Assembly (NCBI GenBank): GCA_950022655.1
Contig: OX465587.1
Span: 33,669,716-33,733,715 of the forward strand
DNA length: 64,000 nucleotides
Source of the DNA: Alentia gelatinosa
Lineage: Eukaryota; Annelida; Polychaeta; Phyllodocida; Polynoidae
Reading direction: 5' to 3'
The position numbers were made by a program, and so were the translations under genes. Positions within the stretch are counted from its first letter, which is position 1. Each line of letters begins with the position of its first letter. A model generated the notes under the pieces. That model was not told the DNA's origin, ran no database searches, and worked only from the letters and a program-made list of their open reading frames with translations. This document shows positions 1 through 61,758 of this stretch, piece by piece.

Positions 1-298
1 GAGGAAACCTACTCAAGTTTAGGGTCAGAGTTCGTATCCCATCGAGTTTGAATCGCGTAGTATTTCACAAGGCGAATCCACGTGAATTACGTAGCGATTC
101 AAACAAGATTTGATCGAGCTCTGACCCTAAACTTGACTAGGATTCTGAATCTATCTCATCCTTAACATTGACTAATGGGCTAACATAATCCCCCATAATC
201 CCCCATTGGATATCTTTCCTAAATATCTCATTGGCATTGGATACGAGTTAACAATATCAAGTCTATGGAGAGAAAATAACAGGGGTGAGATAAAGGAT
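1..298 (+). mobile_element. Bipartite fold-back element, copy I1
   Basis: Bases 6-68 and 82-144 are the arms of an imperfect hairpin of about 60 bp each; the outer arm reads AAGTTTAGGGTCAGAG and its complement CTCTGACCCTAAACTT, and the loop is about 13 bp. It is followed by a module running to GGGGTGAGATAAA near 286-297. Close relatives lie at 27984-28276 (inverted) and 60974-61208. The 5' edge may be cut by the window start. No coding content. Confidence 0.75.
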
Positions 299-302
299 CG
301 TA

Positions 303-1020
303 TCACTCTACAGTAGCCACAGGAATGCCTGTAGGCATTATATATGCTCTGGTATTCCTAGGAATGCTTGGAAGCATTATGCTGCAGTATCCCCACTATT
401 GCCTGGAGGCATCATGCTGTGGTAGCCCTGGGGATGTCTGGAGCCATTATGACGTAGTGGGCCCAGGAATATCCGGAGGCATCATGCTGGGGGGGCCTGG
501 TGGATATGTGGAGTCATCATGCTGCAGTAGCCACTGTGTTAAAGTCATGAAGTGGTGATTGTAAAAATGGAGAATCTGCAGTACAACATCTCGTCCTGGG
601 AATAACTGGAAGCATCAGGTTGCAGTAGCCCCAGGAATGCCTGAATGCATAAAGCTGCATTAGTCCATGGAATGCCTGAAGACATTATGCTGTGGTAGCC
701 CCGGGAGTGCCTTGAAGTATCATGCTGCAGTTCCAACATAAATACCTGGAGGCATTAGCTGTGGTAGCCCCACAAATGCTTGGAAAATTCATACTGCAGA
801 AGCCCCACAATTGACTGGAGGTATCATGCTGTTGTACGCCTGACAATGTCTTTGGCCATTATGAAATAGTAGCCCCAGGAATGCCTTAAAACATTATGTG
901 AGGGCCCTAGGAATGCTTGGAAGCATTATGCTGCAGGACCCTTAGGAATCCCTGGAAGCATTATGCTGGGGTAGCCCTGGAAATGTCTCGAGCCATATGC
1001 TGCAGTGGCCACTGGTGTTA
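303..1020. repeat. Degenerate ~50-bp tandem repeat
   Basis: About 14 diverged units contain GCCCCAGGAATGCCTG followed by GAAGCATTATGCTGCAGTAG-like sequence, with many substitutions and small indels. The ORFs that cross it are short, and the repeat explains their composition. Confidence 0.8.
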
Positions 1021-1231
1021 GATGAAGGGTGATTGTAGAACTGGTGATTTGGCAGTCCAACAGCAGTGTTACATTGCATGATGGTGTCACTTCCAGAATA
1101 TGCTTGATGCAATTTCTTCGTCCATAAGAGCATCATGTTTTCCGACCTGAGCTGAAATCTCCATACTCTCTTCATTTTCAAAATGCATCATGCCGTAACG
1201 CCTGCCGCCATGCCGTAACTGCCGTAATGAT

Positions 1232-1345
1232 GCCGTAACTGTTTGCACACTTAATCAGACGTTATAGGGCACAGAGTGATTACTAGTTCTGCTATCATTC
1301 GCCAGTAAATTGTAATATAGGGCCACTGTAGTCAGGGGGCAACCA
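1232..1345. repeat. Dispersed repeat Q, copy 1
   Basis: The stretch with GCACAGAGTGATTACTAG, an ATTCGCCAGTAAATTG-like segment and CAGGGGGCAAC matches 47990-48075 (GCACAGAGTAATCGCTAG ... CAGGGGACAAC). Just upstream (1195-1245) are a few GCCGTAA repeats. The family is unknown. Confidence 0.5.
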
Positions 1346-1360
1346 CTTTTTTCAGCTTTT

Positions 1361-1920
1361 TTATTACCCACCCATTCCGGAGTCTCCATAGGAAATGTAT
1401 AGAGCATCTGGAATTAGCTACCCGGAGATTCTGATATGTCAGAATCTCCTGCAGGAGATTCCGGGAAAAAAGTCCCTGCTTAAATGAGGTCAATTCATAA
1501 TGTACTTCAAAATGAGTTTATCTAATGTTGATTCAATATTAATTTGTTATAATCAGTCACAATAATCTCGTTTATCATCAGAAATCACTGTCATAAAAAG
1601 ATTTGCACATAAAAACCCAGATGAATAGCGAACTATATAACAGGCGTAAGTATACACCGAATTACCACCATGCCTGACAGTGCTGTGGTGCTATGGCGTA
1701 ATCTGGAACTATATCTACTTTTTAGGCAATAGCCATATTATCTATCTTGTAGGAGGGTAATAAATACAATAACGACTGGTTTTGTTTACGAGTATCCGCA
1801 ATCTCCTCGCAGTTGACGACGTAATATCCTCGCTAATCGCTCGATATTACTACGCGTCAACTACTCGGAGATTACGGCCACTCATACACAAAACCAGTCA
1901 TTATGTGTATATAATCTATA
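1361..1920 (+). mobile_element. Bipartite fold-back element with TTATTACCC / GGGTAATAA module
   Basis: TTATTACCC at 1361-1369 is mirrored by GGGTAATAA at 1755-1763, bounding a ~400-bp module. A hairpin follows at about 1770-1912 with arms ACTGGTTTTGT / ACAAAACCAGT and an inner part with CCTCGCTAATCGCTCGATA at the centre. The module start (CTCCATAGGAAATGTATAG) recurs at 22863-22881. Confidence 0.7.
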
Positions 1921-1964
1921 TATAATATTGAGACGAGGCAAGAGTTCCTCCATGGGAAGCCCCC

Positions 1965-2409: not shown

Positions 2410-2560
2410 TTATAAAACCATGAGGGGTTGACGCATAGTAATACATGAGCGTGGGCACGTGTATTACGAACTCGACATTGAGTGGTTTACTGAGCTCCCT
2501 GTCCACAAATCTATCCTTTGTTGTATTTATTATCCATCTTCTTGAGTAACTTGAACTCAG
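2410..2560. mobile_element. Hairpin element, family S copy 1
   Basis: Imperfect hairpin 2412-2496: AAACCATGAGGGGTTGACG... pairs with ...GACATTGAGTGGTTTA, with GTAATACATGAGCGTGGGCA at the centre. The same arms recur at 9125-9215 and 33650-33745. It is followed by a TTTATTATCCATCTTCT segment, as in copy 2. Confidence 0.65.
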
Positions 2561-2744
2561 GGTGTATCATTCGGGATTAGTTTTTCTTAGCCATAGGTTA
2601 TTCAACAGCCCCCTGTTTGGTTTGATATACATGGACACAGATTCACTTATTCACATATTGAAAAAGGTTTTCCCTCCAGGAAGACAATGTTTAGAGTCAT
2701 GCCAGGCATAGATCTTCAGCCTGACAATACTAAAGAAGGAACCA

Positions 2745-3108
2745 ACAAGTAAAAGTTGTCGCTCTCCACGAGTTTGATGCGGAGTGATATGAACGAGGGG
2801 ACAGTCGAGTGAATATCACAGCATTCAAACGAGCTGGAGAACAGACACTTTAACCAAAACGAGTTGTTTTCTGTATTTATATCACCCCTGTACACACTAC
2901 AAGAATGGACAACACACAGGATATAGACAATGGAGAACGGACTGCTATACTCGTAGGGGCATTGAGAACAAATTCCCAATGTCAAGTCCATGGGACAAGA
3001 ATCCCATTTTTTCCCGCAACGCTCGGCGAAACCCGAACGGGGAAAAGATTGTCAACATGAGTTCCCAATGTTAAGCATATGGGAGAGAAATACCAGGGGT
3101 GAGATAAA
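2745..3108. mobile_element. Bipartite fold-back element, copy I2
   Basis: The hairpin at about 2750-2870 has CTCTCCACGAGTTTGATGCG against CATTCAAACGAGCTGGAGA. The adjoining module runs from TATATCACCCCTGTAC to ACCAGGGGTGAGATAAA (end 3108). The same family is at 36936-37196, 42728-43000, 56201-56488 and 60655-60926. Confidence 0.75.
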
Positions 3109-3401: not shown

Positions 3402-4195
3402 TTATTTTATTACCCACCTAATACAAAGTGTCCATAGAAAACACACAGGGAGTGTGTATGGACATATCCGGCGCATACATTGATATATCCACCTAATACA
3501 AAGTGTCCATAGAAAACACACAGGGAGTGTGTATGGACATATCCGGCGCATACAGATATATCCAGCTAATACAAAGTGTCCACCTAATACAAAGTGTCCA
3601 TAGAAAACACACAGGGAGTGTTTATGGACATTTACTATATACCCATGCCGTATATACTGTAAATACGCACAGTTTCACTATATAACGTAAAAATACTGTA
3701 CGGAACACTGTTCCATACGGGAAAATACAGAACACTTGTTCCATATTTGTAGACTAAAATATTAGTTCTTAGGCCAAATGAATTTTTTTTCTAAATACGG
3801 GTATATAGTAAATATATATCGTCCAACCATGCTTGTACAAGCCACCTAATACAAAGTGTCCATAGAAAACACATCGGCATTGTGTATGAACATACCCATA
3901 GCATACAGATATGTTGTATGCTGCGGGTGGCGCATAGGGAAAAATAGTGCATAGGGAAAAATAGTGCATAACAAAAACGAACTGTCATTGACTTGCCACT
4001 TGTCCAGTAAGGGTGGATAAAAAATACAATATAGACAGATTTCAGATAAAAGCGGATGTATACTCCTCGGATGTATACTCCTCGGAGATAACATAGCATA
4101 GGCTCGGATATCACTGCGCGTCAACTCCTCGGAGCATACGGCCGCTTGTATCTGAAACCAGTCAATATTGTTTATATCCACCCATTACAAAGTCT
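3402..4195 (-). mobile_element. Bipartite fold-back element, family G copy 1 (interrupted)
   Basis: Relative to copy 50106-50592 this is inverted. Three ~75-bp tandem units (3415-3640) contain CCACCTAATACAAAGTGTCC and ACACAGGGAGTGTGTATGG. A ~200-bp AT-rich interruption follows, then another unit (3842) and the hairpin part (4040-4180) with CAACTCCTCGGAGCATACGG. The hairpin arm is damaged by a short direct duplication of GGATGTATACTCCTC. Confidence 0.75.
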
Positions 4196-11856: not shown

Positions 11857-12257
11857 AAAGGGGGCGTCCACAAACCACGACAAGGCTACGACAATGGCTT
11901 CCCGACAAGGTCCACGATTGGCCTACGATTGGAGGACCTTGTCATAGCCTTGTCCTGGTTGGTGGACCCCAGTTCCCGACAAGAGTCTACGACAAAGCCA
12001 CGACAAGGCCACGATTGGAAGCTTGTCAGGAGCCTTCCGACAAGGCTATGACAACATCAAACAAGTTCGATTTTTCCCATGACTGGACCCTTGCTGTGGA
12101 GTGTCATGGTGTGTCGGGAGCGTGTCGCAGAGGTCTACGATAGGAAATTTTGGTGGAGCGTGCACTTCCTGACACGCCCCGACAACGCTGTCGTAAAGCC
12201 CCCCTTCTTTTTTGTCGGCGCTTGTCGTAACCTTGTCGTGGTTGGTGGACACCACCT
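11857..12257. mobile_element. MITE family B
   Basis: Left end AAAGGGGGCGTCCAC, then AACCACGACAAGGCTACGAC; the right end is the inverted equivalent GTCGTGGTTGGTGGACACC. The TIR is ~35 bp. The first ~110 bp is itself a fold-back (TTGGTGGACCCC at 11959), so the element is compound. MITE A1 starts immediately after its right-hand TTA. Confidence 0.75.
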
Positions 12258-15330: not shown

Positions 15331-15660
15331 GTTGATGATTAGATATGTCATTTGCTAGACTCATCACTGGTTGGTGTATACCCTTTTGTTCCCTCACTGA
15401 CAGTCATATCTCCAATATATTTCCTGTTGGCGACTAGCTATATTTACATAGAACGACCTGACCATGCTGTACAAGCTACAAAACGAGATGATAACTCGGT
15501 TTGTACGAAAAAAGGCGATTACGCAGAGTTCCGTATAAATAGTAAATTATCATCGAGTTTTGTGGATTGTACATGCATGGAAGGTCGTTCAAGATATACT
15601 ATATACCCGATATTAATCAAAAGGATTAACTCAACTTAAAGGATTGTAACTACAACATGA
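15331..15660. other. Unassigned spacer
   Basis: No recognised repeat. The open stretch 15352-15639 (+) has no protein family features I recognise. Confidence 0.35.
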
Positions 15661-17655: not shown

Positions 17656-18300
17656 TATTTTATTACCCACCCAATAAGGGTCTCCATACTAAGCCTATGG
17701 AGCCTACAGATCACTACTGAGTAGATTCCGGAAAGCCGTATTCTCCCACTACGCAATACTCCTCGCTTTCACTCGGAGTATTACAACGTGTCGACTACGC
17801 GGAGAATACGATCATGGTACTATTGTGTATATACTTTACTTCTACTCACACAGGTTTTACTATTTCTTTATCATATACAAATGGCTGTTAAGCATAGGTC
17901 TGACATTTGTAGTTGAATATATACACAATATTACCATGATTTTGATCTGAGTGGCCGTATTCTCCGCGTAGTTCACACGAAGTAAAACTCAGAGCGATAG
18001 TGAGGAGTATTACGTAGTGTCAACTACAAGGAGAATACGGCCACACAGATCGAAATCATGGTAATGTTGTATCTATTACTCACCTCTCGACTGATTATTA
18101 GGAAAACAATCTTGTAAATAATTAGCAATTTTATTCAAGCACCGTGCATTGTTTATATGAATAGTTCCTATAATGCCTGTCAGGTGGCCAAAAAAGCTGT
18201 ATCCTCCTAGGAGAACACGGCTTTCCATATTCTCCTCGGCAGCGATCTGGAGGCTCAATAGGCTTAGTATGGAGACTCTGTATTGGGTGGGTAATATATA
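17656..18300. mobile_element. Fold-back element family L with two internal hairpins
   Basis: The outer inverted ends are TATTACCCACCCAATAAGG and the matching TATTGGGTGGGTAATATA; both then continue with CTCCATACTAAGCCTATGGA / ATAGGCTTAGTATGGAG. Inside are two hairpins (about 17725-17850 and 17935-18070) with the arm CCGTATTCTCC...GGAGAATACGG and centre CTCGCTTTCACTCGGAG. It has the same architecture as families G and I with different arm sequence. Confidence 0.75.
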
Positions 18301-22937: not shown

Positions 22938-25011
22938 ATTGTAAGTCGACTTGGTACTTTTATGGCATTTTTATGGTTTTTGCCTGCTCAACCCCAAATA
23001 TCCTGTCAACTTTAGGCGCACCACGTTGAGTTGAGACTGTCATATATTGATATGGTCCTGTCGGAGTCTGGTCCGCACGCCTCCTTTCGAAACCTGACAG
23101 GTTGCTGTCGTGTTCATGTCGACCTAAGGCCACTTACGACGTTCATGATTCAGGTCCCGTTCACTTAAGATTTCTTACACTCACTTTTTATACACAGGTC
23201 GAGTTAAGGCGACTTAAGGTAAGTCACGAAGGAACGTGGTCCTTCGCCCCCCCCCCCCCCCCCCCCACACACATACAAAAATACCAAATGAAATGAAGGT
23301 GAATTGTAAATAGTTCCTCAATAGTTGTAAATAGTTCCTAAAAATTATCACGCAGCTCATTTATCTGTGGCATCACTCCCCTTTCTGCTTGGGGGTGTGG
23401 GGCTTGCGATACCACTATAATCAAATAGTGATGACAACAACTGTGATCCAACCAGCTGGGAGAATGATAAATCATCCGACAATGATCGCCTCTGCATGCA
23501 TGTGGACGGCTGCCGATCATTGGAGGCAGACTGTTGTTGTGTAGATGTTGGTGTGGACAACAGGCAGGATGGAGGAGGAGTTGGTGGCAGTGAACAGGCA
23601 ATGTCCATGGTCGGGAATTGCTGTTGCACCCAACACATGTCATGGGAATGCCACACGCCTGGTGGGGAGGTAATGTTAACAGGCCACTGTGATGGAGGTG
23701 GCTGCCACTGTGATGGAGGTGTTGACTGCTGTGACTGCTGCTGCACTCCCCCAATGAACAGCCGCGGTCGTTGTGGATCCACATTATCTACCATTATTGG
23801 CAGCCTCACTGCTGCCAACTCACAGTTGTTGGTGGCCTGACATTCCTGAAGAACAGTCTGCCTCAAACTGGTAGTGTTCTTGTAGTTCGTTCAGTACATT
23901 TTCTATGAGTCAGAAGGTTGTCTTCCGAAGCTACAGAAGGTGACAGGCCTTGAGTACTGGCACCAGATGACTGGGTATCACTGAGACTGTCTGTTTGCTT
24001 GAATGGTGATAGAGTGTGACTTCAGGAACCAGGAATTGGAATCTGCCCCAGATCCACGTCTCAGTTGCCATGAGCATTCCCGCACCCTGGCCGGACTTGG
24101 CCACCAACCTACAGATTTTTCCGAGCTTTGTCCTCATACTCTCATACCAGGTTTTCAGTTCTTGTGATGTGCGCCCCATGGACTTTGCCTTCTCTGTCCA
24201 CAGGCGGTCTTTAAGTGAGGCATCGCGGTAGCAAACCAAATTTTTGGAATATAGTTCTGGATGCTGCTGGAGATACTCGATGATAGCTTCTTTTTCTTCA
24301 TCGTTAAAGTTTGTATTACTTTGTGGTCCTCCACGGCAATGTGGACGTGGTTGGGGGAGTCCCTCCTCTGCCTGGTATGCCTCCGATGACTCTTGTTCTG
24401 TAGCGGGTGCTGATTCCTGGTCTTCTGATTCACAATCATGCAGGCATGCAATGGACTCAACAGCAGCATCAGTCACCAGTGTATCTGGTGGAACATCTGG
24501 AACATCTGATGCATCAGCAGGCAAATCATTCATTTCAGCAGTAGTAGTAGTAGTAGTATCAGTAGTATGACCCCTTTTGCGCTTCTGCTTCTTTTGAGGC
24601 ATTTTCATGGAGATGGTAGAGAAGGTGAGTTGTGTGTTCTTCAGCTGCTCAAAGTGGAATGAAGCCGTAACGCGACCTACTAGTACTAAGGTGGATGTGA
24701 ACATCAAGCGAAAGTTGCCTTAAGTGGACGGGCTCCATTACCCCCTGGGATCCAGACGGGACTGGACTCAAGCCGATGGCCTCTGTGAGAAGTCAGTGAC
24801 CGAAGCCTGGCCACCGACCACCGAGCCTGTCGACTTAAGTCGAGTTGCAGAAGGCCCTTTTGATGCAGGTATGATGCAGAAGGCACTTTTGACTTGAGGT
24901 GAACCCCGGCAGTCATAAACCACAGGGGGGTTGCTGGGACTGTTCTGACAGATTTTATGACAGTCAGAAATTTTTCGCAGCAACGCCCTGACAGTCAAGT
25001 CGACCTACAAT
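22938..25011 (-). mobile_element. 2.07-kb TIR element carrying a Myb/MADF-like gene relic
   Basis: The ends ATTGTAAGTCGACTTG (22938-22953) and CAAGTCGACCTACAAT (24996-25011) form a 16-bp TIR with one mismatch. TCGACTTAAG- and GTCGACCTAAGG-type subterminal repeats occur inside both ends (about 23118, 23198, 24829), as often seen where a transposase binds. Only a Myb/SANT-like ORF relic is present, with no transposase, so it would be non-autonomous. I could not identify a target-site duplication. PIF/Harbinger elements carry a DDE transposase plus a Myb-like accessory ORF, which is why I favour that superfamily. Confidence 0.6.
23357..24602 (-). pseudogene. Myb/SANT-like (MADF-type) DNA-binding protein relic
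   Basis: Minus-strand reading. The likely start at 24602 (Met followed by the basic MPQKKQKRKRG) precedes an acidic, Thr-rich linker, then a MADF/Myb-SANT-like helix bundle at about 24302-24087 with FNDEEKEAIIEYLQQHPELY, a Trp in DRLWTEKA and KTWYESMRTKLGKI; the spaced Trp/Trp and basic helix fit this fold. Upstream in-frame codons to 24707 exist but look like leader. After the domain the frame must shift near 24000, near 23890 and near 23870 to follow a continuous C-terminal part rich in Gln, Pro and Ser, which ends at 23357 in DDLSFSQLVGSQLLSSLFDY and a short tail. Three shifts mean it is broken. Such proteins accompany PIF/Harbinger transposases or act as host regulators. The TIR element around it argues for the former. 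Confidence 0.65.
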
Positions 25012-27983: not shown

Positions 27984-28276
27984 TATTTATCTCACCCCTG
28001 GTATTTTGTATCAACAGAGTTAACATTGGGAACTCTTATCCAACGCCCATGAGATAGTTAGGAAGAATATCCAATGGGTGATTATGTCACAAAGATTAGC
28101 CCATTAGTCAATGTGAAGGGTGAGATAAATTCAGAAACCTATTCAAGTTTAGGGTCAGGGCTCAATCCCATCTCATTTGAATCGCTACGTATCTCACGCG
28201 GCTTCACCTTGTGAATTACTACGCGATTCAAACTCGATGGTATATGAGCTGTGACCCTAAACGTTAATAGGTTTTC
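27984..28276 (-). mobile_element. Bipartite fold-back element, copy I3
   Basis: TTTATCTCACCCCTGG opens the module; GGGTGAGATAAATTCAG closes it at about 28119. The hairpin follows with CAAGTTTAGGGTCAGG / CTGTGACCCTAAACG arms. It is the inverse orientation of 1-298. Confidence 0.8.
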
Positions 28277-28485
28277 TCTATATCATTATATACCGGTACA
28301 CCGGTAATGTCTCACTTTTACGCGATAGCAGAAAAGATTCCGTTCGGCCGCACCGTGGCGTAAAATATTTTTACGCCACACCGTACCACGTGACTTGTTG
28401 ACAAGCAGAGAGACTAACATTCGGAGGTTGAAATAGGTTGATAATGTAAGTACAAAAATGACATTTAAATCGAATATCGGTATAT

Positions 28486-28606
28486 AATAATAAAAAGACA
28501 TGGTGAGTGTGTCTGAATGCCGTCTGTTCCTCGATATTTTGGCCAAAATATCTCTGAACAGATTCCATTCGGTCACACTAACCATGTCTTTCTATAATAC
28601 CTGAAG
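28486..28606. mobile_element. Hairpin element family M, copy 1
   Basis: Near-perfect fold-back: AGACATGGTGAGTGTGTCTG... pairs with ...CGGTCACACTAACCATGTCT, meeting at GATATTTTGG / CCAAAATATC. The loop is almost zero. Such hairpins can be precursors of small RNAs, but here this is only structure. Confidence 0.75.
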
Positions 28607-29033
28607 CCGCATCTCCTATGTACACCGCCCACTCCTACTCAGGTCGTATTTATGGCCCTACGGGTTACAGCCACTCAGTGGATACCTATAGAATGTAAAA
28701 TCTCGGTATTCTAAGATATATACGAGAAAAAATGCTGACTCTAGTTGCACATCACAAATACATGGCATAACTCTCAATAAGACTCTTCCTCTGCATTAGG
28801 GAAATAGAGTTACACAGTGTATTTTTGACGCACAACTACAGTAAACATGTTTCCGTATATTACTAAATACCTATGGGCGAATGTTGTACTTTTTTACTGA
28901 CCAGGAGAACAACTTCCGTTCGTCTCCGAGTCACAAAATAATATTCATACGTCCCTCCGTACCACAAGACCACTGTCATTCTGTCATTCTGACATGTTGT
29001 GAGTTGTAGAATGACATTCTTAATGATTTCTAG
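28607..29033. other. Unassigned spacer
   Basis: No recognised element or exon. Confidence 0.35.
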
Positions 29034-29200
29034 GTATATAATAATAAAGAGACACAGTGAGTGTGACTGAATTCCATCTATTCCTCGATATTTTGGTCAG
29101 AAATACTCACCTCGTTCTTCGAACTCGGTTAATATTTCTGAGCAAAATATCTCTGAACAGATTCCATTCAGTCACATTAAGTATGTCTCTATATATTACA
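29034..29200. mobile_element. Hairpin element family M, copy 2
   Basis: Same arms as copy 1 (GTGAGTGTGACTGAATTCCA / GATTCCATTCAGTCACATT) but with an extra ~45-bp nested hairpin at the centre: AGAAATACTCACCTCGTTCT ... AACTCGGTTAATATTTCTG. Confidence 0.75.
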
Positions 29201-29830: not shown

Positions 29831-29929
29831 AGCGGGGCACAGGTGTTCCTGTTGGCGACGCGGGACGCGCGGCCATTGATCGGGAGAGGGCGCTGGCAGC
29901 GGTCTGCAGGGGCTGGCGTCCCGACAGAG

Positions 29930-33004: not shown

Positions 33005-33318
33005 TTTTATCCTACCCCTAATAAAACAATAATCAGCTTAACTTTGGGTCACTGTATTCGGTCTGGAGTTCAGAAAAATTAAAAATATCGCTCTAGTGGG
33101 ATACACTTGACAAAAGACGTCATTTGTTAATGTAGAAGTAATTTAGACGGGCAGGGTAGGATAAATTCTAAACCAAACTCGAGTTAGTCATGTCATTGTT
33201 CATCACACTCCGGCAAGATCGCGTATTACTGCTCTCGACTTCGCCTCACCCAGTAATACGCTATCTTGCCGGAGTGCGATGAACAACAACATGACTAACT
33301 CTTGTTTGGTTTCTCCAT
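33005..33318. mobile_element. Bipartite fold-back element, TTTATCCTACCCC variant
   Basis: The module from TTTTATCCTACCCCTAAT to GCAGGGTAGGATAAATTC (about 33165) is joined to a hairpin 33180-33305 with arms CACTCCGGCAAGATCGCGTA / TACGCTATCTTGCCGGAGTG around CTCTCGACTTCGCCTCACC. Same architecture as family I with different ends. Confidence 0.8.
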
Positions 33319-33639
33319 TGTATGTATCAGACTCTGAATCGTGATTTCAGAAACAGTCTTTTCAATCCAGGCTCGCTGGATTACGCATAACAAAACCGGG
33401 AAGTTTGTTACAGATGGAAATGACAATGGATCCACAGAAGATAACCTCGATTTTGAATTGATCTCTTTAAATTGACTGTTTGAAAATTGCTTGATGAATA
33501 CAGAACATGACTCCTTTTGGAAACATCCGAACCGCAGCTACGTTTTTTTACAAAATGCCATTTCAGGTTGGTAGGGTATAACTCATATCATAGATTTGGC
33601 GGGAGGGGTTGAAATAAACGATAATTGGTGGTTTTATGG

Positions 33640-33760
33640 ACAGGCAGCCGTAAACCACGAGAGGTTCATGTGTAGTAATACACAAGCGTTATCGAATGTA
33701 TTACAACGTCAATCATGAGTGGTTTACAGAGCCGCCTGTCCACAAAACCATCTTCTCTAA
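33640..33760. mobile_element. Hairpin element family S, copy 3
   Basis: Arms ATGGACAGGCAGCCGTAAAC / GTTTACAGAGCCGCCTGTCC, with GTAATACACAAGCGTTATCG at the centre. Confidence 0.8.
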
Positions 33761-36935: not shown

Positions 36936-37196
36936 ATATCACCCCTGGTATTTTTGTCATATACTTAACATTGGGGACTCGTTCTCCATGCCCCTACGAG
37001 TATTGTAGTCCGTTCTCCATGCTCTATATCTTGTACATCGTCCATTATTGTAGCATGCACAGGGGTGAGATAAATACAGAAAGCAACTCGTTGTGGTCAA
37101 AGTGATTGACCACATCGTTTGAATGCTACATGATATTCACTCCACATCAAACTCGTGGAGAATAATTACTTTCAACAAAATTTGTTTGATTCTTCT
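36936..37196. mobile_element. Bipartite fold-back element, copy I4
   Basis: TATCACCCCTGGTATTTTTG to CAGGGGTGAGATAAATACAG, then a hairpin with ATTGACCACATCGTTTGAAT / CATCAAACTCGTGGAGAAT that lacks part of its centre. It lies between two copies of the 66-bp-related unit. Confidence 0.7.
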
Positions 37197-37261
37197 TCAG
37201 TATGTGTGTGTGTCTCAAACAGTGAGTTCACAGTTTTTACCACACACCACCACATGTACAG

Positions 37262-38410: not shown

Positions 38411-38411
38411 T

Positions 38412-38690
38412 GTGTATTGAGACCGTTGTAAGACTGATACAAGACTGTTGTAAGACTGATACAAGGCTGTTGTAAGACTGTTGTGAGGCTGATACAAGAT
38501 TGTTGTATAACTGATACAAGACGATAGTGAGACTGTTTGTGAGACTGTTGTAAAACTGATATGAGACTGTTGTGAGACTGTTGTGAGGCTGATATAAGAC
38601 TGTTGTGAGACTGTTGTAAGGCTGATATGAACTAAGTCTCATATTAGCCTTACAACAGTCTCACAACAGTCTTACAACGGTCTTGCACAG
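38412..38690. repeat. GACTGTTGTAAGACTGATAC repeats with inverted end
   Basis: About 12 diverged ~21-bp units. The last ~50 bp (38640-38685, CTTACAACAGTCTCACAACA) is the same repeat in inverse orientation, so the array can fold back. Confidence 0.85.
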
Positions 38691-38783: not shown

Positions 38784-38827
38784 AGGTATATAGGAATATA
38801 GGGAAACTATGTTCCGGTGAGCAAAAG

Positions 38828-38935
38828 TTCAAAGTTACGAAGTAAGGCTCGGAAAAATTACTGCCCAAGGCATTGGCCGCGGGCAGTAATTCTTCCAAGC
38901 CTTACTGAGTAACTTTGACTTTTGATTACCGGTAC
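38828..38935. mobile_element. Hairpin element
   Basis: Arms AAAGTTCAAAGTTACGAAGT and AGTAACTTTGACTTTTGAT continue with AAGGCTCGGAAAAATTACTG / CAGTAATTCTTCCAAGCCTT. The centre is CCCAAGGCATTGGCCGCGGG. Confidence 0.8.
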
Positions 38936-39039
38936 TTGGTTTCCCTAGAAAAATGATTATTTCTTTTCCTGTGATAGCCCCAGAAAAATGGCCACCCTTA
39001 TCAAGTAACTGCAATAGCTAAGTTTTCGTCCCGCTGCTC

Positions 39040-40817: not shown

Positions 40818-41150
40818 AAGAGACGTCACGAGTTTGAGTCTGAGTTTATTTATGCCACGCAATTTGTTGGCTCTATAATTTCACGAGTCGAAGACGAGTG
40901 ACATTATATAAAGAGACGTCACGAGTTTGAGTCTGAGTTTATTTATGTCACGCATTTTGTTGGCTTACAAAATGAGTGGCATAAATAAGCTCAAACTCAA
41001 ACGAGTGGCGTCTAGATTTTATCCTACCCCGTTTCCATATTTTTTCAGTATCAGAAAGTAGTGACATAAACGACACTTTATGTCACACCCGTGTCATAAA
41101 CAAATCCCATGTTAAGCCTATGGCGTTTTTTATTAGGGGTAGGATAAAAC
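40818..41150. mobile_element. Fold-back element, TTTATCCTACCCC variant
   Basis: A ~100-bp direct duplication of GACGTCACGAGTTTGAGTCT (40823, 40914), then an inverse arm AGCTCAAACTCAAACGAGTG (40989), then a module from TTTTATCCTACCCCG to GGGGTAGGATAAAAC (41134). Same module ends as 33005-33318. Confidence 0.7.
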
Positions 41151-41860: not shown

Positions 41861-42727
41861 TTACCATCATTTCAGCGACGTAAAATTGCCGTTGATGCTC
41901 TCCAAGCACACCATGCTCGTACATTGCATCTCCTGTGCCTGGAGAATGATGGTTCTGCCGACCCTTGAAGCACATTGCTGAAGGAAAGTTGTGCATGTCT
42001 AAAGTGAGCTGAATGGACGCATTAAGCGGGCATCTCCCTCGGGGGAGAACACAGCAGACCTTCTACCCATCTCTCAGCATTACGTATTGAACCCTAGCCT
42101 ATCCGTTGTTGCAACCCCTCAGGGAACATTAAACAGTGGAGCACACTCACCATGGGATATCTGAAAGATGAACTTTCAATTCTCAGGAGCACAGTTTTGT
42201 TAAAATTGAGGTAACCTTGAGATTGGGATAAGTTCTACGTCTAATCGACAGACGGCAGCACTTACAGTTCCGGATTTCCCGAGATGCAACTGGAACATTT
42301 CCTTCTTTAAGGACATGCTACACTATGACATCCTCTTTAAGGATACACTGTATCTGGGACATCAATGATATACAATAATAAGTTGACATAATCATCTGGC
42401 ATTTAAAGGCATATACTACAATTCACATTGGCACCACCTGGTAATTTTCAAATGCGATGTCTTCTATAACCCTTGGAGACCATCATATTCAATTTCCAGG
42501 AAATTGACGTGGGTTTTAATGTTGAAGGTATATTGTCCGATATGCTTTTAAGTACATGTATAGCCCGATTCTAATTCATGGGAGTCAGAAAACCAGAAAA
42601 CAGGCTATTAAGTGAGAAAAAAGACTACCCCATAGGTTTACTTTACCAGATTAAAAAATGGCAAGAATTATTTACAAGAAGAGTAAAACGAGGTGACTGG
42701 CAATGAATATCATCCATTCTGGGCAAG
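41861..42727. other. Unassigned spacer
   Basis: No recognisable exon or repeat. The sequence looks unique and lacks long open frames on both strands. Confidence 0.4.
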
Positions 42728-43000
42728 CAGTTAAAGTCGTCGTTCTCCACGAGTTTGATGCGGAGTGATATGAACGAGGCGACAGCTGAGTGAATATCAC
42801 ATAGCATTCAAATGAGTTGGAGAACAACTTGCTTGACCCAAACTAGTTGCTTTCTGTATTTATCTCACCCCTGTACACACTAAGAGAATGGATGACGCAC
42901 AGGATATAGACCATGGAGAACAGACTGCAATACTCATAGGGGCATGAAGAACGAGTTCCTAATGTTAAGCTTATGGGACAAAAATACCAGTGGTGAGAAA
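42728..43000. mobile_element. Bipartite fold-back element, copy I5
   Basis: The hairpin GTTCTCCACGAGTTTGATGC / CATTCAAATGAGTTGGAGAA has centre GAACGAGGCGACAGCTGAG; the module runs TATTTATCTCACCCCTGTAC to ACCAGTGGTGAGAAA. Confidence 0.75.
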
Positions 43001-43605
43001 ATGTTCATCGACACTAGAATCGTTTAGCTAATATCATATACTTTGAATTGTTGAAGATTGATTAGAATTTTGCCTGGCACGACCTTATCGAGTGTTGCAC
43101 CGAAATGCTGTTTATGTCCAGCATGGACAGTTGATGGTACACCTCACATGCGCATGTAACAGATGCTCTGATTGGCTGAAAATGGTTCTCCATAAAAATA
43201 TCAGCCAATGAGAGTTATTTAATGACAACTCTTTTGCAGCAGATTGTTCATTCGTCCAGCCGCTGCAGATGCATATAAACCAAGGAATTTGTCTGGTCAT
43301 TTATGTTTGCCATATATACGGAGTAGAAGGAAGTAAATATGACTTGTATGCTGTTAGGTATATGATAAACGAAGTACCATCTTAACAGAACTTGACTAAT
43401 ATGCACATCTCGGTGACATGTTTGAACATTGATCGCTGTCACTTGGCAGATCTGTCAAGTACAAGTGTCCTGCCTGCATAGTTCCTATGTACGAGATCAC
43501 TGCCGCCCCATAGCATTCATTCCGCCTAGTGAGTCCTGGGTATGAGTAGCTGAACTCTACTTTACAAAATCACTCAGTATAAGTATCATAATTGTTGCAC
43601 CCCTC
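43001..43605. other. Unassigned spacer
   Basis: Contains a short inverted pair around 43162-43215 (ATTGGCTGAAAATGGTTCTC ... CAGCCAATGAG). No exon recognised. Confidence 0.35.
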
Positions 43606-44740: not shown

Positions 44741-44869
44741 TTAATCTATTAATGAAAAGAGGCAATCTATAGGCACAGAGGGCAGGGGACATGCAAGTTT
44801 AATTTAGTAATGAAGAGAGGCCCACCGGCCGACACGGCAGCCCAGTGACCACCCGGCACCAACCAACAG

Positions 44870-46315
44870 CATGCTGATAACTGACTGATACCTACCAACA
44901 GCAGGACGGTGACCATCAAACATAAACATAAACTGATAACTGCCCGATACCTACCGACAGTATGGCAGTGACCACCAACACCAGACAACAGCTGGTGGTG
45001 CCCGCCCGACACCAACCAACAGCACGGTGATAACTGCCCGATACTTGCTGACAGCATTGGCAGTGAATGCCCGACACCAACAAACAGCACGGTGATAACT
45101 GCCTGATAGCTGCTGACAGCATTGGCAGTGAATGCCCGACACCAACCAAAAGCACGGTGATAACTGCCCGATACCTGCTGACAGCATTGGCAGTGAACTT
45201 CATGCCCGACACCAACCAACGGCACAATGATAACTGCCCGATACCTGCTGACAGCATTGGCGGTAAATGCCCAACACAAACCAACAGCACAATGATAACT
45301 GCCCGATACCTGCTGACAGCATTGGCAGTGAATGCCCGACACCAACCAAAAGCACGGTGATAACTGCCCGATACCTGCTGACAGCATTGGCAGTGAATGC
45401 CCGACACCAACCAACGGCACAATGATAACTGCCCGATACCTGCTGGCAGCATTGGCGGTAAATGCCCAACACAAACCAACAGCACAATGATAACTGCCCG
45501 ATACCTGCTGACAGCATTGGCAGTGAATGCCCGACACCAACCAACAGCACGGTGATAACTGCCCGATACCTGCTGACAGCATTGGCGGTAAATGCCCAAC
45601 ACAAACCAACAGCACAATGATAACTGCCCGATACCTGCTGACAGCATTGGCAGTGAATGCCCGACACCAACCAACAGCACGGTGATAACTGCCCGATACC
45701 TGCTGACAGCATTGGCAGTGAACACCTAACATAAACCAACAAAATGGTGGTGACTGCCGAACACCAACCAATAGCACAGTGGTGATCTCCAACACCAACC
45801 AACAGTATAGCGATGACTACATAAACTGACAGCTGCGAGTGACAACCGCCTGACACCAACCAACAGCACAGCAGTGACCTGACACCTACCAAGAGCATGG
45901 TGATGCCCACCCAAAAACAAACAAACAGCATTGGTGGTGACTGCCCAACATAAACCAAAGGCATTGCAGTGACCACACGACACCAATCAACAGCATTGAG
46001 GTGAGCACCCGACACCAGCCAACTGCTGTCAGTGATCACCCAACACAAACCAACAGCATGGTGGTGATCGCCCAACACCTACCGACAGCACTGAGGTAAC
46101 CACCCAACATAAACCAACAGCCTGACAAGGATGACCAACTGACACCAACTGACTGCTCAATACCTACCAACAGCATGGCAGTGACAACCCAACATAAACC
46201 AACAGCACAGCAGTGACGCCCGCTTGTCACAACCAACAGCTTGTGGTGACCACCTGAAACCAACCAACAGTATTAGCAGTGACTGCCCAAAACCAACCAA
46301 CAGTATGGCAGTAAC
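44870..46315. repeat. 65-bp minisatellite with higher-order structure
   Basis: Unit: CAGCACGGTGATAACTGCCC, GATACCTGCTGACAGCATTG, GCAGTGAATGCCCGACACCA, ACCAA. From 45126 a three-unit order (GCAGTGAATG.CGGTG; CAACGGCACAATG; GCGGTAAATGCCCAACACA) repeats twice. 65 is not a multiple of three, yet minus-strand frames are open for 269-343 residues because no phase of the unit holds a stop. Edges (46000-46315) are more diverged. The array continues after MITE V and repeat P2 to about 47085. Confidence 0.92.
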
Positions 46316-50105: not shown

Positions 50106-50592
50106 AATACACAATATTGACTGGTTTCAGATACAAGCGGCTGTATGCTCCTAGGAGTTGACGCATAGTAATATCCGAGCGTATGCGAGGATATTGCACA
50201 GAATCAACTCCGAGGAGCATGCGGCCGCTTTTATCTGAAACCAGACTATATTGTATTCATTATCCACCTTTTCTGGACAAGTGGCATGTCGATATCAGTT
50301 CGTTTTAGTTATGCACTATTTTTCCATACGCACTATTTTTCCGTATGCGCCACCCGGAGCATACAACATATCCGTATGCGCCGGGTATGTCCATACAAAC
50401 TCCCTATGTGTTTTCTATGGACACTTTGTATTAGGTGGATATATCTGTATGCTCCGGGTATGTCCATACAAACTCCCTATGTGTTTTCTATGGACACTTT
50501 GTATTAGGTGGATATATCTGTATGCTCCGGGTATGTCCATACAAACTCCCTATGTGTTTTCTATGGACACTTTGTATTAGGTGGATAATAAA
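50106..50592 (+). mobile_element. Bipartite fold-back element, family G copy 2 (best copy)
   Basis: The hairpin 50108-50255 opens CAATATTGACTGGTTTCAGA; arms carry AAGCGGCTGTATGCTCCTAG / CGAGGAGCATGCGGCCGCTT, and the centre is CCGAGCGTATGCGAGG. The module then runs from TTATCCACCTTTTCTGGACA to TTAGGTGGATAATAAAA. Within it three ~70-bp direct units (50383-50583) carry ACAAACTCCCTATGTGTTTT and CTATGGACACTTTGTATTAG. Confidence 0.85.
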
Positions 50593-51001
50593 ATGAATGA
50601 TACTCGCTGTGTGTAAATCAGTGATAGATGGTATCTTTTGAAGGGATGTGACTGTGGGCGTCAGATCTGTTTAGCGCCAATGAAGGCTATCCTAGTTGGC
50701 ACTATTCCCTAATTCAATTGCCAGTCTTGAAGAGAAAGCACACCCTCAATTCACTGCAGCGGTTCATCGTAGATCCCGCTGTGTCGACTCGGTTTAAGAC
50801 ACACATCAACTGAAGACAGCGTAGAGGGAGGTAGAGTGTGGAGAAAAACGTATCCAGGAGAAAACTCCAACTAATAAAATTAACAATGATTATCTGAGTT
50901 AAAGCCGCAGTCTATTCTTGTCAGAAGCTTTCACTCATCTGCCATAAAATGTGTTATTTCCGCAAACGGGGATTCCCTCTGGGAGAAGGATCCTGTAGTT
51001 T
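50593..51001. other. Unassigned spacer
   Basis: No exon or repeat recognised between two copies of family G. Confidence 0.4.
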
Positions 51002-51675
51002 GTTATCCACCTGATACATAGTGTCCATAGAAAATACATAGGGAGGGTGTATCACCGCACCCAGAGCATACGGATATATCCAAAGTACCCATAGAAAACA
51101 GATAGGGATTGTGTATCATCATACCCGTAGCATATGGATATATAATACATATGGTCCATAGAAAACACATGGGCAGCATGTATCTACATACCTGGAACAT
51201 ACAAATATATCCGCCTATTACATAGTGGCCATAGAAAACACATGGGCAGCATGTATCTACATACCCATAGTATACGGGCATATCTACCCAATACATGTAC
51301 ATAGTGTCCATAGAAAACACATGGGCAGCGTGTATCTATATATCCAGAGAAAACAGATATGTTGTATGTTCTGGACTGCAAAAGCTAGCGCATACATGGA
51401 AAATAGTGCGTATGAAAAAATAGTGCGTATCTAAATGAACCAATATCAGCAACCCACCTGTCAAGAAAAGGTGGATAACGAATACAATATAGACTGTTTT
51501 CAGATGTTAAGAAAAGGTGGATAACGAATACAATATAGACTGTTTTCAGATACAAGCGGTCGTATGATCCTCGGAGTTGCCTCTGCACAATATTCCTCAC
51601 AGGCACTTGGATATTACTGCGTACCAACTCCTGGAGCATACGGCCGCTTGTATCTGAGACCAGTCAATATTGTTC
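51002..51675 (-). mobile_element. Bipartite fold-back element, family G copy 3
   Basis: Inverse of copy 2: about five diverged 65-70-bp units (TAGAAAACACATGGGCAGCA) at 51010-51345, then GCATACATGGAAAATAGTGC, then the hairpin 51535-51668. A 45-bp direct duplication (AAGAAAAGGTGGATAACGAA, 51463 and 51509) lies at the junction. Confidence 0.8.
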
Positions 51676-51755
51676 ATGTATGCTATGATTTTTATCTCTT
51701 TTAATGAAACTCTGTAAGTGTGGTATTTACAATAAAAGAGTGCTTATCCTCACGC

Positions 51756-56200: not shown

Positions 56201-56488
56201 TTTATCTCACCCCTGGTATTTTTTTTCCAATAGGCTTAACATTGGAATCTTGTTCTTCATGTCACTTCGAGTGTTGCAGGCTGTTATCCATAGTCTATAT
56301 CCTGTCCAACATCCATTATTTTAATGTGCGATAAATACAGAAAGCTACTCGTTTTGGTCAAAGTAGTTGTTCTCCAACTCGTTTGAATATTACGTGATAT
56401 TCACTCGGCTGTCGCCTCATTCCTATCACTCCGCATCAAACTCGTGGAGAACGACGACTTTGACCAAAACTTGTTGGTTTCCTCTTTA
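56201..56488 (-). mobile_element. Bipartite fold-back element, copy I6
   Basis: TTTATCTCACCCCTGGTATT opens the module; its closing end is truncated to GATAAATACAG at 56331. The hairpin has AGTTGTTCTCCAACTCG / CTCGTGGAGAACGACGACTT and centre CTCGGCTGTCGCCTCATTC. Confidence 0.78.
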
Positions 56489-58849: not shown

Positions 58850-58920
58850 TCAGTCGCCTATAGGGCAAACAACTATTGTATTATGGAGGCAGCCATCTTG
58901 TCCTTGAAACAAAAAAACTC
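58850..58920. repeat. Dispersed repeat N fragment, copy 3
   Basis: CGCCTATAGGGCAAACAACT and GAGGCAGCCATCTTGTCC correspond to the CCCTATA... and CAAGATGGCC parts of repeat N in inverse order. Confidence 0.4.
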
Positions 58921-59283: not shown

Positions 59284-59423
59284 CATTTTCTATCGGTGCC
59301 TAATCGCAGAGACGTGGTCAACTGGCCCGATATTAGGTGACCTTTCGACGCGATTTTGATTTTGAATCGTGAGGTCCATCGTAGACCATATCGGAGCCGT
59401 GTCGTAGTAGGTGGACGCTGGGC
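59284..59423 (-). mobile_element. MITE family A, copy A7 (half element)
   Basis: Only the right ~140 bp remain (TCGCAGAGACGTGGTCAACT to GGTGGACGCTGGGC), followed by TTTA. Confidence 0.75.
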
Positions 59424-59622
59424 TTTATTCTGTACCAAGATGCCACCTGCTGCTTGTATATAAGCAGATGAACCTCTCAATATTACATGCAGTTAAGTTC
59501 TTGACTCCTAGCAGTACAAAGTACATCTGTGTTTGAGTTCTTACTCCCTTCTTCTTTAGGTCTACACTTAGCTAGTCTAAGCCTCCAGGCTTTACAAACT
59601 GATAACAGTGGTCCTACCCATA

Positions 59623-60440
59623 CTTTTTTTTTTTCTTTTTTTTTTATGTCTCTCACAATAGTGAGTTTTTCAGTCTTTTAATGGCCAATTACAGTGAAGA
59701 CAACAGAAATATCCAAGTTCAATATATCAAGGTGAGGAAGGTGATGATAGGGAGTATAAAAAGAAATTAACCATCAATATTAGAGCACTCGCTTACGTTT
59801 CAACCGGAAAAATAGCTCTTGATCTCCTCTTTAGTTTTGCTTTTTTGGACACTACTGGGCAACGAGTTCCATAGTCTCGCTCCTCTTAAATAAGGAGAAT
59901 TAAGCACAATTGAACTTTTAGTACGATAGATCTCAAATAAAGTTTTGTTGCTTGATCTAGTGTCTCTCTGAGCAACGGATAGCCAATCATTTTTCATACG
60001 ATATTTAAACATGATACAACATAATTGTTTCTTACGTCTTACTACAAGTGATTCAAAGTTACAGGCTCTTTCCATACTGGTGATAGAGTGTCTGTAACCA
60101 AATAAGCCCAATGCACAACGCATTCCCTGATTATGGATCCTTTCTATTCTATCTATATCACACTTCTTAAAGCTGTCAGTCAAAAAAGAACAATATTCAA
60201 GAACAGGTAGGATAGAGGATACATATACATTGATTGAAGCATCTTTGTAAGACAATACCTGAGTTTTCGAAATTTAAACATTCTTGCACTCACGTTCTTT
60301 ATAATTTGGTTGCAATTAATCTGCCAGTTGAGCGCAGAGTCGGACTCTACACCCAGGTAACAGTAATGCTGACATTGGGCAATTGCTTCATTATTCATAC
60401 TCAACAGCCGTGAGACTATCTTACAATTTGCTGGTGGATG
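59623..60440 (-). mobile_element. 5'-truncated LINE (non-LTR retrotransposon) with poly(A) tail
   Basis: On the minus strand the reading starts near 60440 with NCKIVSRLLSMNNEAIAQC, continues YCYLGVESDSALNWQINC (the 'YLG..D..L.W' motif after the polymerase core of non-LTR RTs), then after a frameshift at ~60260 the 151-residue C-terminal part. That part has ILPVLEYCSFL, DRIERIHNQGMRCALG and GARLWNSLPSSVQKS, the usual end of jockey/CR1-like RT proteins, with a stop at 59800. About 150 bp of 3' UTR follow, then a T-run at 59623-59646 (a poly(A) tail on this strand, interrupted by one G). Endonuclease and RT core are absent. At least one frameshift. Dead copy; class assigned from these motifs only. 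Confidence 0.8.
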
Positions 60441-60654
60441 ATGGCGGAACCAGCAATCACTCTGTGCCCTGTAGACTGAACACTGAGAGATTGTTAGACC
60501 TCCTTAAAGAGACCCAAGTTGTTCCCTCTGGTGAATTTTTCATTGAGACTTATCCAGGCCGAAGAGGCTAAGTTCCCGACTGTCGTCAACAATTATCAAT
60601 TGAACCCCTCCAAAAAGGAATTAGCCCATTTGGTAATAAGAAGGAAATTGATGA

Positions 60655-60926
60655 GCGTTTGGTCTGTGCCCTCGTTCTCCATCGAGTTTGGAGTGCTCAG
60701 TAATATGAACGAGGCGATAGCCGAGTGAATATTCTGAAGCGCACCAAACGAGATGGTGAACAGGGACTCAGACCAAGCACGAATATGTTTCTGATTTTAT
60801 CTTAGCCTGGAAATTTATATTCATCTCTTTATCACCCGTTGAGAACGAGTTACCGTTCGCGCAAGCCCGTTGAGAACGAGTTCGTAATGCTAAGCCTATT
60901 GACGTTTATACCAGGCTAAGATAAAG
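60655..60926. mobile_element. Bipartite fold-back element, copy I7 (variant module ends)
   Basis: The hairpin GTTCTCCATCGAGTTTGGAG / CACCAAACGAGATGGTGAAC has centre GAACGAGGCGATAGCCGAG. The module runs ATCTTAGCCTGGAAATTT to ACCAGGCTAAGATAAA, i.e. both ends changed together from CACCCC to AGCC. Confidence 0.78.
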
Positions 60927-60973
60927 GTATGTCTCACACATCCTTGTCCTTTTAAAATTTATAAATCACCATG

Positions 60974-61203
60974 AAAGTTAAGGGTCAGAGCTCATATTCC
61001 ACCGAGTCTGAATCGCGTAGTCATTCAAACGAGATGGGATCGAGATCTGACCCTAAACTTGAATAGGTTTCTGAATATATCTCACCCATCACATTGACTA
61101 ATGGGCTAATCGTAATGACATAATACCCCGTCGAGTAGATTCCTAAATATTCAACGGGAATTGCATACGAGTTCTAGATGTTACGTCTATGGGGAAGGAA
61201 TAT
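60974..61203 (+). mobile_element. Bipartite fold-back element, copy I8 (interrupted by hAT-like MITE)
   Basis: The hairpin TAAGGGTCAGAGCTC / GAGATCTGACCCTAAACTTG has a deleted centre. The module TATATCTCACCCATCACATT runs to GGAATAT at 61203, and the expected closing GGGTGAGATGA is found only after the insertion, at 61759-61769. Confidence 0.75.
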
Positions 61204-61758
61204 CAGGGCCCCGTTGTTCCTGTTTTTGTGGTATCGCTAGCAATAATCGGATCGCAATTTTATTTTTACGATTACTTTAACGATCTGACTAAAAAAAGCG
61301 CCAGTAATATCGGATCGTATCGCTATATTTCCGCGGTATCGCTAATTTTTACGATGCGATCACGATGCAATAATTCAGGGGCACATATTGAATGAGACAG
61401 GGGAAGATTAATTAGTTCTTTAATTAAATACGGATGGCACCATAGTTAAAACTGATCTGACAGCTGGTGGTTTGGATCGCTATTTCCTATAGGTAAAAGA
61501 ACAAGGGGCAGGGGTTGGTGGTGCCATCATGGATCGTTATTTGAAATATCAGACAAGGCTGTATTTAACCAACAGCGATAGGATCCGCAGTGCTGTGAAG
61601 GTCCGTGTAAAAAGTATCACTAAAAGCCGTATTTCACGCGGCGTTGCGCCTATGCGATTGCGACACGATCCGCAAAATTTCAGGAGCAACGTTTTGGCCC
61701 TCGGATCGCTTTTCTGCGATCCGCAACTCTGTCGTAATCCTGGAGCAACGGGGCCCTG
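61204..61758. mobile_element. hAT-like MITE
   Basis: TIR CAGGGCCCCGTTGTTCC (61204-61220) and GGAGCAACGGGGCCCTG (61742-61758), one mismatch in 17. CAGGG... termini are typical of hAT elements. The interior is rich in GGATCG/CGATCC. It splits element I8. No 8-bp target duplication could be seen. A further CAGGGCCCTTTTACATAG at 62106 may be a solo end of a relative. Confidence 0.75.

Follow-up and report, generated by a model that had tools for sequence, protein, structure and literature searches.

Bipartite elements in the window

The stretch analysed here, 64,000 nucleotides of contig OX465587.1 of the polynoid annelid Alentia gelatinosa (assembly GCA_950022655.1) and referred to below as the window, corresponds to C9:33669716-33733715 of an assembly of 1,234,393,884 bases in 101 contigs (1.23 Gb). 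It carries many copies of a bipartite repetitive element, in which a module closed by short inverted repeats of the TTATC..ACCC type adjoins a long hairpin. The superfamily to which these non-autonomous copies belong is real and very large; its elements resemble those of the Helitron2/Helentron group in the way they work and are probably members of it. The original prediction had described them as one superfamily by architecture, with pairing kept while arm sequence changes, and this description stands. All 15 bipartite places that it listed were read, with both inverted ends measured at 10 of them; the element at 60974 has lost its 5' side, and the one at 17656 consists of two partly overlapping pieces. 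With two unlisted elements (28282 and 28859) the measured set comes to 12, and the elements at 2745, 3402, 36936, 42728 and 60974 were placed from motif position alone.

The families are named after their repeats: TTATCTCACCCC in the A family, TTATTATCCACC in B, TTATCCTACCCC in C, TTATCTTAGCC in D, and TTACTATATACCC and variants in E. The A1 elements lie at 1..293 (minus strand; 5' end 293, 3' inverted end 151-161, hairpin 4-145, with the final 4 bases falling upstream of the window), at 27987..28282 (plus strand; 5' end 27987, 3' inverted end 28118-28128, hairpin 28135-28274) and at 60970..61110 (minus strand; a 3' part with the inverted end at 61076-61087, 5' side lost and limits approximate). 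The A2 elements are found at 2731..3107 (minus strand; 5' end 3107, 3' inverted end 2877-2888, hairpin about 2745-2870 from motif and eye), 36937..37199 (plus strand; 5' end decayed, 3' inverted end 37063-37073), 42727..43001 (minus strand; 5' end about 43001, 3' inverted end 42860-42871) and 56202..56488 (plus strand; weak 3' inverted end with 3 mismatches).

B elements occupy 3407..4175 (plus strand; tandem repeats in the center, the 5' end at 3407 and the 3' inverted end at 4011, with a hairpin that reaches 4175), 50107..50591 (minus strand; central tandem repeats, hairpin 50111-50254 with apex CCGAGCGTATGCGAGG) and 51000..51677 (plus strand; 3' inverted end from 51516, hairpin 51530-51673). 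A B-like (F) element at 1361..1910 on the plus strand starts with TTATTACCCACC, its 3' inverted end beginning at 1752 and its hairpin spanning 1761-1913, and the two overlapping B-like pieces cover 17660..18297, with a minus-strand piece from 18297 to 17921 and a hairpin at 17911-18085. A remnant of a B-type 3' inverted end (2521..2535, minus strand) adjoins the isolated hairpin at about 2412-2510. The C family is represented by a C1 element at 33007..33319 (plus strand; 5' end 33007, 3' inverted end 33154-33164, hairpin 33170-33312) and a C3 element at 40820..41147 (minus strand; 5' end 41147, 3' inverted end 41019-41030), whose hairpin region is partly duplicated and whose outer limit is approximate. 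The D element at 60653..60924 (minus strand) has TTATCTTAGCC ends on both sides and the apex ACGAGGCGATAGCCGAGT.

E-type elements include one nested in the B element at 3407..4175 (3632..3840, plus strand; TTACTATATACCC at 3632-3644, GGGTATATAGTAA at 3799-3811, hairpin truncated and right limit set by eye), one lying head to tail after the second A1 element (28283..28596, plus strand; hairpin 28487-28598) and one at 28859..29198 (plus strand; hairpin 29039-29198, GA/GA apex on the bottom strand), together with a hairpin adjoining a GGGTATATAGTATA end (15439..15603, minus strand). Two further hairpins are a TGTGGACAGG arm type at 33629..33750 and one at 38799..38947 that adjoins AGGTATATAGG; because a relative (L017:901) has AGGTATATAGG on both sides, the orientation of the hairpin at 38799..38947 is uncertain.

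Anatomy of the element and co-variation of its ends

Hairpin and module are one element. Read 5' to 3', it consists of the TTATC..ACCC repeat, a body, the inverse GGGT..GATAA repeat, up to about 20 nt of spacer, the hairpin, and the end. The body is about 120-500 bp long in the 12 measured elements and contains tandem repeats in some, as in the center of some B elements of the window; about 150-175 nt separate the 3' repeat from the element end, and the hairpin spans 100-180 nt at the 3' edge, with arms of up to about 60-75 nt. The outer bounds are TTATCTCACC..CTCTATA/CTTTA or TTATTATCC..GTGTAT, the terminal letters being TTATC at the 5' end and CTATA, CTTTA or GTGTAT at the 3' end.

A scan for self-complementarity, with a cut at score 20 and low-complexity sequence left out, finds 18 hairpins in the window and none in one order-2 Markov resample. 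At least three of the 18 (11518, 11863 and 38524) are of another kind. The isolated hairpins at 33640 and 38828 exceed the cut, and those at 2412, 9125, 14480 and 41545 score under 20 and were read by eye. When the window is taken together with 41 further loci, most of them picked via the 5' end of one family, the end motif adjoins the hairpin arm in 46 of 67 hairpins, as against 12.5% of random positions; the motifs in this comparison were derived from the same data, so that it checks arrangement, not frequency. A hairpin family with arms CCACGACAAGGCTACGACAATGG and without the end motif described here was also seen, at 11863-11970 of the window and at L003:2469-2567 and L053:9-115.

The two repeats of an element change together, as had been predicted. 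The own repeats of the 12 window elements differ by a mean of 1.08 mismatches, compared with 4.83 when repeats are swapped between families (116 pairs), the 5' repeat being the best upstream match, which favors the own-end value. As a control, 300 random spans of the same length were compared per element; between 0 and 6 of them did as well, except for the element at 56201 (3 mismatches), where the number was 24. The arms, for which the same had been claimed, are not strictly tied to the ends, A and C ends each occurring with several arm sets. The end type TATATACC / GGTATATA likewise pairs with several arm sets (window 3632-3840, 28283-28598 and 28859-29198; L002, L010, L014, L023, L025 and L034), which suggests that ends and arms have been shuffled. 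Clustering of arms (blastn, E 1e-5 over 40 nt) distributes 92 hairpins over 35 clusters, some of which are unrelated inverted repeats.

The same anatomy is seen in the A family, sampled as the first 40 matches, in map order, to a 20-mer of its 3' end (25 A1 and 15 A2 copies). The 5' repeat is present with at most 2 mismatches in 32 of the 40 and the distance from repeat to repeat is 131-135 in 28. A 5' subterminal block near CATAGGCTTAACATTGGGAAC is common to the first 50 nt of A, C and D elements, and CTTAACAT, with at most 1 mismatch, occurs in 30 of 32 A copies. Head-to-tail neighbors were noted by eye at 28282 of the window and at L015, L016, L064 and L094.

Copy number and insertion sites

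The 20-mer just mentioned, GGGTGAGATAAATHCAGAAA, which joins the A-type 3' repeat to the spacer, has 13,791 exact matches in the assembly and its reversed control none; TTATCCACCCNNNACAAAGTNTCCATAGAA has 55. No match to GGGTGAGATAAATHCAGAAA was found in viral contigs, and matches in 5 prokaryotic records of the genome collection were taken as chance. Among the first 100 listed matches to the B apex, in map order and reaching to 81.4 Mb of 181 Mb, 68 fall within the initial 20 Mb of C1, which makes the B family seem denser towards that chromosome end.

The elements insert at T|DTAY without target-site duplication. Both ends could be set in 26 of the 40 A copies, the other 14 being left out for a poor 5' repeat or the lack of a clear 3' end, and for six of the 26 the DNA fetched contains paralogous empty sites: L060 (69% identity), L076 (89%), L077 (83% and 79%), L082 (two, 87%), L087 (92%) and L092 (76%). 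When the first base of TTTATC (or ATTATC) is counted as host, seven of these eight comparisons are exact to the base, with no duplication and no loss, and each of the six copies has at least one such comparison. The empty sites cover the whole bipartite unit end to end. Two B copies, L012 and L013, lie inside the arm of another B hairpin, where the junctions read by eye are GCTT|GTATCTG and GGTT|TTATCTG.

Edges were also compared in 30 B copies, for which the selection criteria included ATATTAC near the apex and among which one 5' end (L020) was used for two 3' ends. The base preceding the element is T in 18 and A in 8 of the 26 A copies, and T in 26, C in 3 and A in 1 of the B copies (T in 44 of 56). 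The bases that follow are D in 24, T in 22, A in 22 and Y in 21 of the A copies, and D in 29, T in 25, A in 24 and Y in 26 of the B copies. The target at the edges of the 56 copies is W|DTAY, mostly T|DTAY, and a strict TT is not kept. The check for target-site duplications proposed with the original prediction reveals none that is clear at the empty sites or at these edges: direct repeats of 3 nt number 1 in A (shuffled 1.39) and 1 in B (0.29), those of 4 nt 1 in A (0.20) and 1 in B (0.51), and there are none of 5 nt in either set.

A strand-polar GA/GA mismatch in the hairpins

The centers of the hairpins had been predicted to look alike across families, and what they share is an apex with tandem GA/GA mismatches; the pairing at this apex is not the one that the predicted centers bring to mind on a first reading. 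The apex CCGAGCGTATGCGAGG can be written CC-GA-GC(GTAT)GC-GA-GG, that is, two short stems around a tandem GA/GA mismatch. The same plan is seen in CAC-GA-GGC(AAA)GCC-GA-GTG (L040), CAC-GA-GTC(GAA)GAC-GA-GTG (window, near 40882), ACC-GA-TGCC(GGA)GGCA-GA-GGT (L010), ACC-GA-GTTC(GAA)GAAC-GA-GGT (window, 29039) and AAC-GA-GCCG(GCA)CGGC-GA-GTT (L034). In DNA, both sheared tandem GA pairs and GNA loops are generally of high stability.

Tandem mismatches were counted as 2x2 loops with at least 2 pairs on each side in hairpins of score 20 or more. Of the 122 found, 48 are GA/GA, 15 are GA/AA or AA/GA, 8 are TT/GG, and the remaining types account for at most 5 each; computed from 270 single mismatches, about 0.8% would be expected to be GA/GA if positions were independent. 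GA/GA is present in 12 arm clusters. The spacing of successive GA/GA loops on the same strand is 25 in 5 of 11 cases, 4 in 3 cases, and 56, 26 and 22 once each.

The mismatches are also strand-polar. Among 93 rows oriented by the adjoining 3' repeat, the complement of the 5'-TTATC strand carries GA/GA 62 times and the 5'-TTATC strand itself 6 times, with GA/AA at 18 versus 3, alongside 70 other tandem loops. Twelve of these rows represent six hairpins that are flanked by a repeat at either side and were entered in both orientations; the 81 singly orientable hairpins give 58 (in 48 hairpins) versus 2 for GA/GA, the exceptions being 38799 of the window and L034:2681, and again 18 versus 3 for GA/AA. 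In nine hairpins with at least two pure GA/GA loops, all those of a hairpin are on one strand. GA/GA has the look of a mark that distinguishes the strands of a nearly perfect palindrome, and the very long 3' palindromes and this strand-polar mark are the unusual features of the superfamily.

In the 30 B copies the apex loop is GA/GA in 20 and changed or gapped in the others, being fully paired in none, and the lower loop is GA/GA in 16. The 24-mer of the B apex with GA/GA occurs 1,861 times in the genome, and one fully paired form 0 times; since any given double mutant is rare anyway, the lack of paired B apices argues only against a sizeable subfamily so paired. Folding of the majority sequences predicts the bottom strand to be slightly better than the top (-63.2 versus -58.7, -42.1 versus -40.1 and -56.1 versus -55.2). 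Folding energies were dropped as evidence for strand choice, as they take no consistent direction among the hairpin rows listed.

Search for an autonomous partner

The partner with the same ends that the original prediction had proposed to look for did not emerge: among the best candidates scored, the search yields only two to three broken RepHel loci, unlinked to the elements. PF14214 is represented by one locus, C7:36825292-36825621, with PIF1 pieces downstream, and PF05970 by 9 pieces; PF20209 was not found, though its controls stayed silent too. A protein search with Rep pieces gives 4 matches at 2-3 loci, one of them at C7:3642491-3642778 (89%) with weaker pieces near 3648700. The only RepHel-like relics found, C7:36823478-36825621 and C7:3642491-3648928, both have broken frames, and when the two regions are compared only pieces align, without shared ends. 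Single end-like matches (at most 2 mismatches) occur near the relics, and a C-type 5' end sits where the alignment of the second RepHel copy stops. An open reading frame after the helicase appeared OTU-like by eye, but Pfam found no family and this identity is not claimed. A RepHel element once existed in this genome.

Other features of the window

No long gene could be named in the window, and neither Rfam at gathering score nor tRNA scans returned anything there. An open reading frame of 258 amino acids at 23931-24707 (minus strand) has a MADF/Myb-SANT-like domain (PF10545), of a type carried by Harbinger-type elements. Another at 59800-60255 (minus strand) resembles by eye the C-terminal part of a reverse-transcriptase protein of long interspersed elements, Pfam giving no family. 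Long open frames at 29785-30535, 37991-38431 and 44767-46078 consist of short tandem repeats that look minisatellite-like by eye.

A probable single-strand mode of transposition and its alternatives

Anatomy, co-varying ends, insertion without target-site duplication and copy number together make it likely that the elements are non-autonomous single-strand transposons of the rolling-circle type, with the plan of Helitron2/Helentron elements. The 5' repeat (TTATC..ACCC) would be recognized by an enzyme acting in trans, which would copy or peel off one strand; the process would stop at the 3' side, at the inverse repeat and long hairpin, and insertion of the strand into T|DTAY would leave the target unduplicated. 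The hairpin, being an almost perfect palindrome, is nearly identical on both strands, and GA/GA on the strand complementary to the 5'-TTATC strand would make the two fold differently and could in this way mark the strand.

Several observations weigh against this reading. No autonomous element with these ends was found by a search that scores only its best candidates, so that more RepHel copies may exist, and no end pair frames a gene in the 16 and 15 kb read around the relics. A 5' hairpin is inconsistent (z from +1.6 to -3.4 in the folding of 15 ends). In the available text of the published descriptions, on which all comparisons with known elements here are based, Helentron hairpins are several times shorter and the target is TT, not T|DTAY. 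As to insertion, the comparison of L077 with L001 lacks two further bases, that with L008 being exact; two of the empty-site comparisons have 69-76% identity only; and direct repeats of 2 nt at the edges show a slight surplus (A 6 versus a shuffled mean of 3.5, B 7 versus 5.2). As to the mark, hairpins with at least two tandem loops of at least three purines are one-stranded in 21 cases and mixed in 13; the A1 apex (25 of the 40 A copies) is AA/GC, with GA/GA only lower in the stem; hairpins 28487, 40914 and L017:576 have no such loop; L034:891 seems by eye to have two sites on opposite strands; and predicted strand energies have no consistent direction per hairpin among the rows listed. Finally, the copies are not independent events.

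The mark itself has a competing explanation that deserves some weight, although we consider it the less probable one: GA/GA may be a functionless fossil of one ancestral hairpin common to all families. The apex CACGAGGCGAAGCCGAGTG is nearly identical in several A, C and D arm types, and part of the GA/GA pattern is thus plain homology. Against a mere fossil, the flanks change in step by eye (GGC/GCC, GC/GC, GTC/GAC, TGCC/GGCA, GTTC/GAAC, GCCG/CGGC) while GA/GA stays, and neither the B sample nor the genome-wide count of one paired form, with the reservation made above about rare double mutants, contains a paired apex.

More tentatively, the elements might be a lineage of single-strand transposons on the Helentron plan whose enzyme is either its own or a RepHel that has changed strongly. 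Giant palindromes would be used in this lineage, and the resulting strand problem would be solved by sheared tandem G-A pairs that lie on one strand only, at the apex and, in part of the families, a second time about 25 nt further down. The arms could then drift freely while pairing is maintained, giving rise to many arm families in one genome. Somewhat more doubtful is a separate single-strand lineage with an HUH enzyme other than the Helitron RepHel, converged on the same end plan. Its attraction is that RepHel seems almost absent, with 2-3 broken loci in 1.23 Gb among the best candidates scored against 13,791 end 20-mers, and that hairpin length and target are distinct; on the other side, broken RepHel relics do exist, autonomous partners can be rare or lost, and the plan and lack of duplication fit the Helitron2/Helentron elements as described.

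It is improbable that the hairpin acts as RNA, as a source of double-stranded RNA, Piwi-interacting RNA or silencing, with GA/GA as RNA motifs. The hairpins are long and tandem GA pairs are stable in RNA too, but the window holds no Rfam family at gathering score and the precise 3' terminal position suits a role in DNA. A DDE transposase that moves the copies as ordinary cut-and-paste miniature inverted-repeat transposable elements (MITEs) or as foldback elements is very unlikely, even though short inverted ends, a T/A-rich target and very high copy number recall them and HINEs were earlier misread as MITEs (PMC4067079); a MITE with terminal inverted repeats was rejected because the 3' repeat is internal and there is no duplication at empty sites and no clear excess in the 56 copies. 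That hairpin and module are independent repeats, for instance two MITEs side by side by chance or through a shared target preference, is the least credible reading of all, as the constant order and spacing in the A family, the adjoining end motifs and above all the empty sites spanning the whole unit contradict it, for all that some window hairpins stand alone and adjacent insertions of different families occur. These last two outcomes, independent repeats and MITEs with ordinary terminal repeats, were the ones named beforehand as telling against the original prediction, and neither was found.

Comparison with Helitron2, Helentrons and other known elements

The original prediction knew no named element type with this plan, but Helitron2, Helentrons and HINEs have it (PMC3627910, PMC4067079). 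The terminal inverted repeats of Helitron2 are asymmetric; the 3' copy directly precedes a hairpin, and compensatory changes preserve these features (PMC3627910). The present elements share with it the asymmetric repeats, the 3' repeat before the hairpin, the 5'-T start, the compensatory changes and the general lack of target-site duplication. They differ in the distance from 3' repeat to end (20-30 in Helitron2, about 150-175 nt here), in arms of 60-75 nt, in the target (TTTT|T/C as against T|DTAY), in a partner gene that is unlinked and in the lack of a consistent 5' hairpin (PMC3627910). Asymmetric or subterminal repeats (in the 12 measured window elements, in 32 of the 40 A copies and in the 30 B copies), a 3' palindrome and insertion without duplication are found, and a 5' hairpin involving the 5' repeat is not (15 ends); related Chaetomium elements without a 5' hairpin have been reported (PMC5148889).

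Helentrons and HINEs have subterminal repeats of 12-15 bp and a 3' palindrome, which in the mite is 5-10 bp long; they insert at TT and leave the target unmodified (PMC4067079). Their likeness to the present elements, which extends to DINE-1, lies in the subterminal repeats, the 3' palindrome, the unmodified and, to a degree, T-rich target, central tandem repeats and many non-autonomous copies; the difference lies in the palindrome of 100-180 nt, in the T|DTAY target and in the strand-polar GA/GA, which the available part of that report does not describe (PMC4067079). In the elements described, the distance between 3' repeat and end is 20-30 or 38-60 bp (PMC3627910, PMC4067079). The oyster Cg_HINE elements are similar in having many non-autonomous families per genome, repeats of 11-12 bp, a 3' palindrome, satellite-like central repeats and no linked autonomous partner, and differ in the TT target and in an inverted repeat beside the 5' repeat, which is inconsistent here (PMC7492417).

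Canonical Helitrons (Helitron1; 5'-TC, CTRR-3', A|T target) are ruled out by the ends and the W|DTAY target: neither the 5'-TC/CTAG-3' ends nor the 19-bp palindrome (PMC4778049) is present, and the A|T target (PMC4067079) is absent. Origin motifs of small Rep viruses gave no match by eye. We found no report of a tandem-GA mark or of a long hairpin in Helitrons in the open-licence literature. Such elements could be misread by search programs that rely on the ends of canonical Helitrons or MITEs, and TTATC..ACCC / GGGT..GATAA with a long palindrome and T|DTAY provides a detection rule for them.

For the question of how Helitron-type enzymes recognize the 3' hairpin and choose a strand, this one genome constitutes a natural experiment that separates structure from sequence: some dozen arm clusters differ in their stems and share the strand-polar GA/GA apex. 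In Helraiser, a bat Helitron, a swap of the stem of the 3' hairpin kept about 90% of activity, and a change of the loop was as harmful as deletion of the hairpin (PMC4778049). An interchangeable stem and an important loop in Helraiser thus find a likeness in the free arms and fixed apex of the elements described here.

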